From: Chelativorans sp. Marseille-P2723
GTDB taxonomy: Bacteria > Pseudomonadota > Alphaproteobacteria > Rhizobiales > Rhizobiaceae
Direction of reading: 5' to 3'
DNA length: 64,000 nucleotides
NCBI RefSeq assembly: GCF_902809845.1
Contig: NZ_CADDWI010000008.1
Span: 868,001 to 932,000 of the forward strand
The translations under genes were made by a program, and so were the position numbers. Numbering within the stretch: position 1 is the first letter of the stretch; each line of letters opens with the position of its first letter. This document shows positions 6,254 to 33,119 of the stretch, piece by piece. Under the pieces are notes generated by a model. The model did no database searches. It had not been told where the DNA came from and worked only from the letters and a program-made list of their open reading frames with translations.

Positions 6254-6298
6254 ATGAACACTGTTCTTTTCGCAAAGCTTTGGTGGTGGGCTCGCTGA
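6254..6298 (+). CDS. trpL: trp operon leader peptide
   Basis: A 14-residue peptide, MNTVLFAKLWWWAR, ending in TGA at 6296. Three consecutive Trp codons (6281-6289) sit just before Ala-Arg-stop, exactly the ending of the S. meliloti leader peptide peTrpL (also 14 residues, WWWAR). An in-frame ATG lies four codons earlier (6242), but it falls inside the predicted -10 box, so 6254 is preferred. The ribosome position on the Trp codons would control folding of the RNA at 6302-6364 and hence readthrough into trpE(G). In S. meliloti the released peptide and the attenuated RNA also act in trans; whether that holds here is inference. Too short to be called by standard gene finders. Confidence 0.9.
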   Translation: MNTVLFAKLWWWAR

Positions 6299-30255: not shown

Positions 30256-31968
30256 CTATCCGACGATGCGATTGGCCGCTGAGACCACCGCCTCCAGCGA
30301 AGCAGCAACTATATTTGTGTTGATGCCTACACCGAACAGCCTGCCGCCCGGATGCTCCACATCCATATAGCAGATGGCCGCAGCGTCGGCCCCGCGTTGG
30401 AGTGAATGCTCGGAATATTCGTGGACGGTCATCTCCACCCCCACATAGGCGGAAAGGGCATTGATGAAGCCATCTATAGGCCCATTCCCGATGCCCTTGA
30501 TTGTCGTCTCCTTACCCTTGTCGAGAATTATGGCCTCCACAATGCGCCGGCCCTTTGCATCGGGATCGGGAAAGGTCTGGTGATCGACGAATTTCAGCCG
30601 CGCGCCCGGTTGCTCGACATAAAGCTCCAGAAAGCGGTCGTAGATGCATTTGGACGGCAGTTCTTTACCTTCCGCGTCCGTGATGGCCTGAATATCCTCG
30701 CGGAACTCAACCTGCAGATTGCGCGGCAGGTTCAGGCCGTAATCGGCCTGGAGAACATAGGCGATGCCGCCCTTGCCTGACTGGGAGTTGATGCGGATGA
30801 TCGCCTCATAGGTCCGTCCCACGTCGGCAGGGTCGATGGGCAGATAGGGAACCTCCCACTGCTCCCTGTTAGCTTTGCGGAACGCCTTCATCCCCTTGTT
30901 GATGGCATCCTGGTGCGAACCTGAGAAAGCCGTGTAAACCAGCTCGCCCACATAGGGGTGCCGCTCGGGTATGCGCAGCTGGTTGCTATATTCATAGACG
31001 TCCTTGATCCGGTTGATGTCGGAGCAGTCCAGCATCGGGTCAACGCCCTGCGTATACATGTTCAGCGCCAGCGTTACGACATCGACATTGCCGGTGCGTT
31101 CGCCATTGCCGAAAAGCGTGCCCTCGACGCGCTCGGCACCGGCCATTAGGCCAAGTTCGGTCGCCGCTATGCCCGTACCTCGGTCATTATGCGGATGCAG
31201 GGATACGATGATGCTGTCGCGCCGGTCCAGATGGCGCCCCATCCATTCGATCTGGTCCGCGTAGATGTTCGGTGTGGACATTTCCACCGTTGCGGGCAGG
31301 TTGATGATGAGTTTGTTTTCGGGAGTAGGATCCACGATCTCGATCACCGCATTGCAAATTTCCAGCGCCACCTCTAGCTCCGTGCCGGTAAAGCTTTCCG
31401 GTGAGTATTGGAAGCGATACTCACCACCTGCCGCGGCCGCCATGTCGGTAATCATCCTGGCAGCGTCTGTGGCAATTTTCTTGATGCCTGCAACGTCCTT
31501 TTCGAAGACGACACGGCGCTGCAATTCGCTGGTCGAATTGTAGAAATGGACGATCGGACGTCGCGCGCCTTCAAGCGCCTCAAACGTGCGCGTGATCAGT
31601 TCAGGACGACATTGTACGAGCACCTGGAGCGATACGTCATCGGGCACATTGCCATGCTCGATCGCCCAGCGCGTGAAGTCGAAATCCGTCTGGGAGGCCG
31701 AAGGAAAGCCGATCTCGATCTCCTTGAAGCCCATGTCGAGGAGCAATGCGAACATACGCGACTTGCGTTCGTGCCCCATCGGGTCGATGAGAGCCTGATT
31801 GCCATCGCGCAGGTCTACCGAGCACCAGATCGGCGCCTTTTCGATGCGTTTGGATGGCCAGACGCGGTCAGGAAGATCGATCAGGGGATAAGGTTGATAT
31901 TTTTGCGCCGCATCAGGCATGCCCTTCTTGTCGACGCTCTGCCTGGCATTTCTAATCTTGGAATCCAT
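30256..31968 (-). CDS. leuA: 2-isopropylmalate synthase
   Basis: A 570-residue enzyme of leucine synthesis that condenses acetyl-CoA with 2-oxoisovalerate. The long (type 2) form is evident from KYQPYPLIDLPDRVWPSKRIEKAPIWCSVDLRDGNQALIDPMG at the start, the metal-site SLHPHNDRGTGIAATELGLMAGAERVEGTLFGNGERTGNVD in the TIM barrel, and the C-terminal regulatory domain that binds leucine for feedback inhibition. AGGAGAAG precedes the ATG by four bases; a second in-frame ATG 16 codons later is also possible. Upstream lies a Leu-rich leader peptide and a set of alternative stems (32054-32101), suggesting transcription attenuation. Confidence 0.96.
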   Translation of the reverse strand: MDSKIRNARQSVDKKGMPDAAQKYQPYPLIDLPDRVWPSKRIEKAPIWCSVDLRDGNQALIDPMGHERKSRMFALLLDMGFKEIEIGFPSASQTDFDFTRWAIEHGNVPDDVSLQVLVQCRPELITRTFEALEGARRPIVHFYNSTSELQRRVVFEKDVAGIKKIATDAARMITDMAAAAGGEYRFQYSPESFTGTELEVALEICNAVIEIVDPTPENKLIINLPATVEMSTPNIYADQIEWMGRHLDRRDSIIVSLHPHNDRGTGIAATELGLMAGAERVEGTLFGNGERTGNVDVVTLALNMYTQGVDPMLDCSDINRIKDVYEYSNQLRIPERHPYVGELVYTAFSGSHQDAINKGMKAFRKANREQWEVPYLPIDPADVGRTYEAIIRINSQSGKGGIAYVLQADYGLNLPRNLQVEFREDIQAITDAEGKELPSKCIYDRFLELYVEQPGARLKFVDHQTFPDPDAKGRRIVEAIILDKGKETTIKGIGNGPIDGFINALSAYVGVEMTVHEYSEHSLQRGADAAAICYMDVEHPGGRLFGVGINTNIVAASLEAVVSAANRIVG

Positions 31969-32053
31969 TCCACTTCTCCTGGCGCTTTGCTACAGCGCAC
32001 TTGCCTGCAAGACTTCCTCATTTCCAGTTAAAGAAGGAGCAAGCCAGAAGCTT

Positions 32054-32101
32054 CCGGCGACATCCGATCGCCGGGCGCCCCTTCAGTGGACCCGGCGATC
32101 G
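32054..32101 (-). promoter_or_regulatory. Predicted leu transcription attenuator
   Basis: Read on the minus strand: segment 1 CGATCGCCGGG (32101-32091) lies inside the last codons of the leader ORF, segment 2 CCCGGCGATCG is at 32075-32065, and segment 3 TCGCCGG at 32060-32054. 1:2 pair over 11 bases; 2:3 pair over seven bases (CCGGCGA/TCGCCGG, seven-base loop). The two pairings exclude each other. A ribosome reaching the leader stop would cover segment 1 and favour 2:3; stalling at the Leu codons frees segment 1. The U-tract after 2:3 is poor (CCTTCTTT begins about 17 bases on), so termination at 2:3 is not certain. Confidence 0.6.
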
Positions 32102-32202
32102 CCGATAAGGCCGAGAAGCAGAAGTTCGGATAGAGTAGCATGCAGGTCCGCTCCGATGGAGGCGGCAAGAACAGCAGATTTCGCGCATGCTGAATGGCTC
32201 AT
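32083..32202 (-). CDS. Leu-rich leader peptide upstream of leuA
   Basis: A 39-residue frame from ATG at 32202 to TGA at 32083, ending 115 bases before leuA. It contains four consecutive Leu codons (CTT CTG CTT CTC, 32124-32113), then Gly and another Leu, in the context SELLLLGLIGDRRVH-stop; two more Leu codons lie at positions 20 and 24. The stop codon falls between the first and second halves of a strong stem. This is what a leucine attenuator leader should look like. A predicted -10 box ends six bases before the ATG, so the message would be leaderless, as in the trp leader of this window. Too short for normal gene finding; not known to me from annotation. Confidence 0.7.
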   Translation of the reverse strand: MSHSACAKSAVLAASIGADLHATLSELLLLGLIGDRRVH

Positions 32203-32208
32203 GAGCGT

Positions 32209-32237
32209 CTGATAGACGAGCCGAAAGCAAGATGCAA
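32209..32237 (-). promoter_or_regulatory. Predicted leu leader promoter
   Basis: On the minus strand, TTGCAT (32237-32232) and TATCAG (32214-32209) are separated by exactly 17 bases. The expected start point is the A of the leader ATG at 32202. The layout is the same as for the trp leader (TTGCAA, 17 bases, TATGAA). Predicted by eye. Confidence 0.5.
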
Positions 32238-32409
32238 CCGGCTTTCGCGCTTGACTCGAAGAACAAGGTTCTTGTGGGATGATCTTAGGTTGTAAGTATC
32301 CAGTTAAACGACTTTAAATTGTTATAGTCCAGTCTCATTCCGAATACGCGCCCCCGTCAAGTGGGGCGTTGCCGTGGGGGAGGGCACCGCCGCCCCGCGC
32401 GGTGGAGTC

Positions 32410-32425
32410 CTCCATTTTTATGGAG
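32410..32425 (+). promoter_or_regulatory. Hairpin masking the omp ribosome-binding site
   Basis: CTCCAT (32410-32415) pairs with ATGGAG (32420-32425) around a TTTT loop. The GGAG of the second arm is the ribosome-binding site of the outer-membrane protein gene starting at 32433. Two more GC-rich stems lie upstream (CGCCCC 32349-32354 with GGGGCG 32363-32368; CACCGC 32385-32390 with GCGGTG 32399-32404), so the 5' leader is strongly structured. Confidence 0.5.
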
Positions 32426-32432
32426 TACTCGG

Positions 32433-33119
32433 ATGAGGATATTACACGCCGGAGTTGCTAGCTTTACGCTCTGTTTTCTTGCAGGCGAGCTTTTCGCAGC
32501 GGACGCGCTTTACCTTGACGAAAAGACGCCGGAAGCGCATGCCTTTGACTGGTCCGGGCCCTATTTCGGCCTCGCCGGCGGTTTCGCATGGAGCAAGGCT
32601 GAGGTGGATGGAGGCGCCATCGTCGCCGCCGTCTTACCCGATAAGAAGAGGCTTTATGCCGATGGAATGTTCGGCGGCGTATATGCCGGATACAACCGGG
32701 CGTTCGGTCCTTGGATATTCGGCATTGAAGGCGATGCGCAGCTTTCGGATATCGCACTCGAATACCGCAAAGGTGCATTTTCAGCCAGCTACGACACGGA
32801 CTGGTTTGCTACCGCCCGCCTGCGTGCCGGCTATTCAATCGGCCGGATACTGCCCTATGTGACGGCAGGCGTTGCGCTCGCTCATGGAACCTTAAAGACA
32901 GAACACGAGACGACCCACCACCTGACTTTCGATCAGAAAGATACCTTTGCGGGCTACGCGCTTGGTGCAGGCATGGATATGGCCTTTTCGGAAAGGCTTA
33001 TTGGCAGGCTTGAATATCTTTACCTGGATCTTCCCGACACGCTCCATAAGAGAGTTGGCGACCTCGATATCGAACCTGTGGGGCACACCCTACGCTTCGG
33101 CATGGCTTACAAATTCTGA
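32433..33119 (+). CDS. Omp25/Omp31-type outer membrane beta-barrel protein
   Basis: A 228-residue protein with a signal peptide (MRILHAGVASFTLCFLAGELFA, cleaved near residue 22) and a small beta-barrel: WSGPYFGLAGGFAWSKAEV at the first strand, repeated alternating hydrophobic strands, LRAGYSIGRILPYVTAGVALA, and a terminal strand ending in FGMAYKF with the final phenylalanine needed for barrel assembly. These are features of the Brucella Omp25/Omp31 porin-like family common in Rhizobiales. GGAG lies eight bases before the chosen ATG; the upstream frame start at 32361 adds non-coding-like residues. Its leader RNA may fold over the ribosome site (32410-32425). Confidence 0.9.
   Translation: MRILHAGVASFTLCFLAGELFAADALYLDEKTPEAHAFDWSGPYFGLAGGFAWSKAEVDGGAIVAAVLPDKKRLYADGMFGGVYAGYNRAFGPWIFGIEGDAQLSDIALEYRKGAFSASYDTDWFATARLRAGYSIGRILPYVTAGVALAHGTLKTEHETTHHLTFDQKDTFAGYALGAGMDMAFSERLIGRLEYLYLDLPDTLHKRVGDLDIEPVGHTLRFGMAYKF

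Follow-up and report, generated by a model that had tools for sequence, protein, structure and literature searches.

The window, a 64,000-nucleotide stretch of the genome of Chelativorans sp. Marseille-P2723, carries on its minus strand a leuA gene encoding 2-isopropylmalate synthase, as identified by profile scores of 866 bits against NF002991 and 762 bits against TIGR00970 (cut-off 697). The nearest named relatives found, in a search that may omit the record of the genome itself, are two Chelativorans with a leuA identity of 86%. The leuA ATG at position 31968 lies 114 nt downstream of the stop codon of a leucine-rich short open reading frame (sORF), which is accompanied by the arms of three helices, termed H1, H2 and H3, and by a predicted promoter. 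The divergent neighbour gene (32433-33119, plus strand) encodes an outer-membrane beta-barrel protein (PF13505), and its promoter would occupy the same intergenic region as that of the leuA leader. The features are arranged as follows.

30256..31968, minus strand: leuA, 2-isopropylmalate synthase (TIGR00970 type), with the Shine-Dalgarno (SD) motif AGGAG at 31980-31976
32029..32034, minus strand: weak U-rich stretch after H2, TCTTTA, from hairpin and T counts
32035..32040, minus strand: 3' arm of H2, GCTCCT, pairing with 32082-32077 and about 30 nt beyond the 5' arm
32054..32060, minus strand: segment 3, the 3' arm of H3 (7-bp repeat), which rivals segment 1 for segment 2
32065..32075, minus strand: segment 2, the 3' arm of H1 and 5' arm of H3 (inverted repeat, pairing conserved)
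32077..32082, minus strand: 5' arm of H2, AGGGGC (AGGAGC in most relatives), just after the stop codon; covaries
32083..32085, minus strand: leader stop codon TGA in the loop of H1, its letters re-read
32083..32202, minus strand: leader sORF of 39 codons, MSHSACAKSAVLAASIGADLHATLSELLLLGLIGDRRVH, with ATG at 32202 and a TGA ending at 32083; a Leu-rich leader in 109 of 110 loci
32091..32101, minus strand: segment 1, the 5' arm of H1, within the coding part of the leader (inverted repeat, pairing conserved)
32107..32124, minus strand: regulatory codons Leu27-Leu30, Gly31 and Leu32 (CTT CTG CTT CTC GGC CTT), in the peptide stretch ELLLLGL
32209..32214, minus strand: -10 element TATCAG of the predicted leader promoter, 6 nt upstream of the leader ATG
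32232..32237, minus strand: -35 element TTGCAT, spaced 17 nt from the -10 element in the predicted leader promoter; TTG in all 40 loci listed

A sequence-only reading of this region had described the 39-codon frame with its ELLLLGL run, a TGA between two 11-bp arms and a competing 7-bp stem, and each of these was found on the minus strand where it had been placed. That reading missed the third covarying helix, H2. To follow the leader in relatives, we assembled 110 leuA loci, comprising 80 named loci, 29 more from the same family (Rhizobiaceae) and that of the window; some of them are near-duplicates, so that they do not amount to 110 independent observations. A Leu-rich frame with a related C-terminal motif precedes leuA in 109 of the 110 loci, and the remaining one (L073) has only 2 nt of upstream DNA. 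The leader peptide of the window ends in ELLLLGLIGDRRVH. The C-terminal motif reads LLLLGLIGDRR(V/A)R in many Chelativorans and Mesorhizobium loci and LLLLGLTRGCRV(R/L) in many Rhizobium loci, with variants occurring in both groups. Analysis of codon usage revealed that CTT makes up 57% of the leader Leu codons, compared to 4% in the leuA genes of the same loci, where it is a rare codon. In 106 of the 109 loci, the final Leu codon of the leader is CTT and the next base is A. Across these 109 loci, between 105 and 255 nt separate the leader stop codon from the leuA start chosen.

H1 is a perfect 11-bp inverted repeat (32101-32091 with 32075-32065) that holds the leader TGA between its arms, and H3 is a 7-bp repeat (32074-32068 with 32060-32054). 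Segment 2 is common to both, and the two predicted helices are mutually exclusive. Among 108 loci, H1 shows standard pairs in 1184 of 1188 cells, with arms located by pattern, a procedure that favours the structure. To examine the pairing on an alignment made without structure (A1), we used 64 of the 103 distinct leaders. RNAalifold picked H1 from this alignment unprompted, and six of its 14 pairs are changed on both sides in at least one sequence, five of the six in H1 proper. Taken together, H1 and H2 on A1 have 98.7% standard pairs, compared to 33-54% when slid, and 39 cells changed on both sides; none of 500 shuffles is as high in either measure, and five of 500 reach the seven pairs with both-sided changes, with shuffles that ignore the relatedness of the sequences. 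Mapped onto the leuA protein tree, the 64 changes in H1 comprise 10 compensatory, 51 one-sided with pairing kept and three breaking, and the 37 in H2 comprise seven compensatory, 14 one-sided with pairing kept and 16 breaking, where the arms were again located by pattern or complementarity in favour of the structure. The breaking changes of H2 fall partly in loci with possibly misplaced arms. H2 is fully paired in 103 of 109 loci when its 3' arm is taken as the best complement, again a choice that favours the structure, and it appears as AGGGGC:GCCCCT in three; only two of its six pairs are changed on both sides on A1. H3 is variable in sequence, and in 36 of 108 loci the fold of segment 2 plus the spacer falls in the top 5% when set against spacer shuffles, with a mean z of -1.28. 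Overall, covariation supports the predicted helices H1 and H2, and H3 more weakly. The conservation of the Leu codons and of the pairing, which had been proposed as a check on the sequence-only reading, was borne out by these alignments.

H2 and H3 form a nested hairpin, whereas the 5' arm of H2 sits in the loop of H1, so that H1 and H2 could form an H-type pseudoknot. The two are similar in predicted stability, with means over 108 loci of -25.1 kcal/mol for H1 and -22.8 kcal/mol for H2 plus H3, H1 being lower in 90 of the 108. In single-sequence folding, the whole leader of the window is unremarkable (z -1.78), with a somewhat stronger signal for the core around H1 (z -2.63).

The predicted -10 and -35 elements were obtained by a search that presupposed a promoter near the leader ATG and chose the best-scoring hexamer pair. 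In 106 of 109 loci the -10 element ends 6-8 nt short of the leader ATG, and just five of the 109 show an SD-like motif ahead of this ATG. Because the -10 element sits only 6-8 nt before the ATG, this placement suggests that the leader transcript starts at or next to the ATG and is thus a leaderless mRNA. The trpL leader of Sinorhizobium meliloti is likewise leaderless according to a passage of PMC10117765. The sequence-only reading depended on a transcript that begins upstream of 32202; the predicted promoter pair agrees with this, but a strict consensus scan of 31900-32500 found no promoter, so that the leader promoter rests on conservation and on the best-of search.

The distribution of the leader was analyzed with a covariance model (R1) built on the 64 leaders. 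In the Chelativorans genome itself, R1 yields one strong match of 82 bits; the search for further copies of the element gave weak matches only, the best of 23.6 bits. R1 matches 144 of 151 sampled family genomes with 146 copies, some of them by construction, as the training leaders come partly from these genomes. Each of the 146 copies is followed on its own strand by a leuA match no more than 500 nt away, with a median distance of 114 nt, and in two genomes copies also precede second leuA copies. Among the seven family genomes without an R1 match, five have no leuA match, one has a leuA fragment only and one is a 1.1-Mb genome. In the latter (locus L222, G006) leuA is kept and the leader region looks divergent, perhaps decayed. 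Outside the family, one of 145 sampled genomes of the order matches R1 under strict filters, in front of a LeuA of the same type. At this locus, L221 (G194), inspection by eye showed a tandem pair of leader-like frames (about 1-45 and 155-240) before a type-2 leuA: the first frame has a hairpin around its stop codon, then TTTT, and the second is H1-like, with H1 kept by changed but complementary arms and H2 not seen.

The other families of the order mostly possess a distant LeuA of type 1 (about 25-30% identity), and some possess type 2. A second leader architecture was found in 23 of the 24 loci examined (L149-L152, L155-L170 and L172-L174), in which CTTA...CCCCTGA or a variant forms the end of a Leu-rich sORF; in most of them, some 80-180 nt lie between the leader stop and leuA. 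Its helix comprises 7 bp, with the stop codon in the 5' arm and TCAGGGG or a variant, taken as the best complement, as the 3' arm. On the alignment, this helix is 99.5% paired and two of eight pairs are changed on both sides, yet the covariation support is modest because shuffled alignments have at least as many pair types. None of the 23 loci has more than three T in the 8 nt that follow the helix. The corresponding covariance model (R2), whose 23 training leaders come from the same genome sample, matches 105 of 121 sampled genomes of the order but none of the four that belong to the family, that is, 105 of the 117 others; 104 of 107 R2 matches are directly upstream of a leuA match. The stretch CTTA, composed of the last Leu codon and the next base, is invariant or nearly so in both leuA leader types (columns 16-19 of A1 and 22-25 of alignment A2). 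By eye, some loci from orders further removed within the class carry a Leu-rich frame whose stop codon is enclosed by a hairpin.

Given its conservation throughout a bacterial family, the element is almost certainly a genuine sensor of leucine, in line with the earlier proposal of a leucine leader before leuA with mutually exclusive stems and a stop codon in the loop of the first. We propose that it acts in cis as a ribosome-sensed switch for leuA that works by premature termination without a canonical terminator, perhaps assisted by Rho, a reading we hold with somewhat better than even confidence. RNA polymerase would start at or next to the leader ATG, as the promoter placement implies, and a ribosome would translate the leaderless sORF. 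When charged tRNA-Leu is scarce, the ribosome would stall at the Leu run, 12-23 nt upstream of segment 1, leaving this segment free; H1 would then form and block H3, and leuA would be transcribed, making starvation the on state. When leucine is plentiful, the ribosome at the stop codon would cover segment 1, so that segment 2 could pair with segment 3 to form H3. H2 would then close the base of the H3 hairpin, and premature termination in the leader would lower leuA expression in this off state. The sign of the switch (H1 on, H2 plus H3 off) would follow if the footprint of the ribosome is taken to reach about 12 nt past the first base of the A-site codon; stalling on Leu32 would then hide roughly half of segment 1. 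The start site, the stalling and the output are inferred as well. A pseudoknot of H1 and H2 could keep H2 in both states, in which case H2 would not distinguish them.

The output was compared with the trp leaders of the same family as a control. The trp leader of the window itself, MNTVLFAKLWWWAR, lies at 6254-6298 on the plus strand, before a trpE(G) gene starting from about 6417 (TIGR01815). In the leu leaders, the 8 nt after H2 contain 1.95 T on average, with at least five T in five of 103 and at least four in 12 of 103, compared to a mean of 5.83 T and at least five T in 29 of 30 trp leaders, counted over the 8 nt after GGCGGCC. The weakness of the U-tract noted in the sequence-only reading is thus right for the window, and across the family the tract is mostly absent. 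Moreover, when the whole interval from the leader stop to leuA was scanned for a hairpin followed by a T-rich tract, nine of 109 leu loci gave a match, compared to 27 of 30 trp loci. The leuA leader therefore lacks a standard intrinsic terminator as a conserved element, and a terminator further downstream before leuA was rejected, being present in nine of 109 loci at most. These counts bear directly on the possibility of a classic transcription attenuator, in which the H2/H3 hairpin would be an intrinsic terminator that works despite its poor U-tract. Its sensor half would be as in trp, and in the window the hairpin followed by TTCTTTAA passes the loose hairpin-plus-T rule and the leuA leader has 4 T of 8, equal to the window's own trp leader (ATTTGCAT), the sole one of the 30 below five. 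The contrast between the leu and trp U-tracts thus holds at the family level, not in the window alone. A consensus scan of 31900-32500, by contrast, found no terminator-like site, and with the family counts this makes the classic attenuator unlikely. Accordingly, the earlier claim of classic logic in the same arrangement as the trp leader holds for the sensor half and for the two leaders of the window, which are alike in their U-tracts, but not for the terminator across the family.

The leader structure might instead govern translation by masking the leuA ribosome-binding site (RBS), for example through an anti-SD-like GCTCCT arm freed by a ribosome on the leader stop. The H2 arms do resemble SD (AGGAG) and anti-SD (CTCCT) sequences, the both-sided changes confined to two H2 pairs would suit such a constraint, a CCGGGAG that resembles segment 1 was seen by eye before leuA in a number of relatives, and pairing with the leuA SD has been proposed for the actinobacterial leuA leader in PMC1262725. 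However, the predicted accessibility of the leuA RBS is the same with the ribosome at the stop or at the Leu run (0.454 versus 0.447; more masked in 12 and less masked in 12 of 109 loci). When the leuA RBS of other species served as comparison, neither the 3' arm of H2 (p 0.12) nor the 5' arm of H2 with segment 2 (p 0.84) showed a significantly better match to its own, and the distance from stop to leuA varies more than twofold. Masking of the leuA start was thus not supported, showing neither dependence on the ribosome state nor an RBS match of the H2 arms, and we regard translational attenuation as improbable. Still less probable, at a small fraction of the whole, is mRNA processing or decay, or a short leader RNA or peptide that acts in trans as in the S. 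meliloti trp leader. The unpaired, A-rich and G-poor stretch after a stable hairpin would make a plausible cleavage site, and peTrpL is described as acting in trans in S. meliloti in part of PMC7298713, but the conserved end of the peptide coincides, by eye, with the Leu run and segment 1. A chance combination of a Leu-rich frame with an unrelated palindrome, to which the unremarkable fold of the whole leader might point, is refuted by the conservation and covariation and has a negligible probability.

The candidates left for the output of the proposed ribosome-sensed switch are termination with the help of Rho, termination by a U-poor hairpin, and processing. Since most of the family lacks a U-tract, the output is most likely not a standard intrinsic terminator, and we weakly favour termination assisted by Rho, acting on the unpaired RNA downstream of H2, which is poor in G. 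The 30 nt after H2 are A+T-rich, with a G fraction of 0.16 compared to 0.33 after the trp U-tract, and C exceeds G in 94 of 108 loci. In the window, by contrast, this stretch is not G-poor (4 C and 8 G), and its U count equals that of its own trp leader; in addition, formation of H1 leaves more downstream RNA unpaired, an effect expected to favour Rho under starvation and not to impede it. For the order as a whole, we put forward with less than even confidence that Hyphomicrobiales control leuA by hitherto undescribed terminator-less, ribosome-sensed leader RNAs: in the family, an H-type pseudoknot of H1 and H2 with a leaderless Leu-rich sORF, and in the rest of the order, a CCCCTGA:TCAGGGG hairpin with the stop codon in its 5' arm, neither of them read out by intrinsic termination.

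Leader-peptide control is textbook knowledge, its usual output being a U-tract terminator, and the leu operon attenuator of enterobacteria has a leader peptide with consecutive Leu codons and alternative stems. The leuA leader shares these two features, but places its Leu codons upstream of segment 1 and lacks a conserved terminator. Rfam includes a Leu leader family; a search of the whole window against Rfam 15 gave no family at the gathering score, the leader region searched to an E-value of 10 gave only two unrelated matches (a snoRNA and a microRNA), and eight related loci of both leader types gave nothing relevant, only a tRNA. The open-access literature, searched by title and start of abstract, gave no leuA leader in rhizobia or alphaproteobacteria, with the 2004 survey of proteobacterial attenuators outside this scope. 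Searches of the main texts of PMC2873474, PMC3616915, PMC2573895 and PMC1273637 for leuA or leucine gave no mention of the term sought; PMC1273637 does mention an ilvB leader peptide, citing the 2004 survey in FEMS Microbiol Lett. The alphaproteobacterial ilv leaders are a related case of branched-chain amino-acid control by leader peptides, in the same class but for a different gene, and a rho-independent terminator is described for Caulobacter ilvBN in a section of PMC4117421.

The actinobacterial LEU element, compared here by its description in part of PMC1262725, resembles the leuA leader in having a Leu-rich leader peptide, a proposed pseudoknot and an alternative hairpin before leuA. In that element the Leu run and the leuA SD pair with each other to form a base stem, whereas the leuA leader gave no support for RBS masking. 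As to the pseudoknot, H1 and H2 of the leuA leader both covary and interleave. The same part of the article reports that mutations in the Streptomyces leuA leader do not fit classical attenuation, so that a Leu-rich leader need not act as an attenuator. Translated leader ORFs without an intrinsic terminator occur in two further systems according to excerpts of their reports, namely a DUF1127 gene of S. meliloti, with uORF attenuation in which Rho is suspected (PMC12218461), and toiL-topAI of Escherichia coli, where the coupling of the uORF to Rho was shown (PMC12121999). Both are antibiotic-responsive, and no relation to the leuA leader is claimed.

The closest system is the rhizobial trp attenuator (trpL/rnTrpL), present in the window itself, which like the leuA leader places an sORF of cognate codons and competing stems before a biosynthetic gene. 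The two differ in the U-tract across the family, with the pair in the window being equal. The leuA leader has kept its codons, competing stems and promoter spacing across the family, whereas most trp leaders of that family end in a normal terminator. If the proposed switch is true, the leader would offer a natural test case of how a translated leader stops transcription, or translation, without a U-tract terminator, in an element without an Rfam 15 match upstream of leuA in laboratory-tractable rhizobia. Altogether, leader-peptide control of leu genes is known, and it is in the missing terminator, the third helix and the spread that the leuA leader differs.
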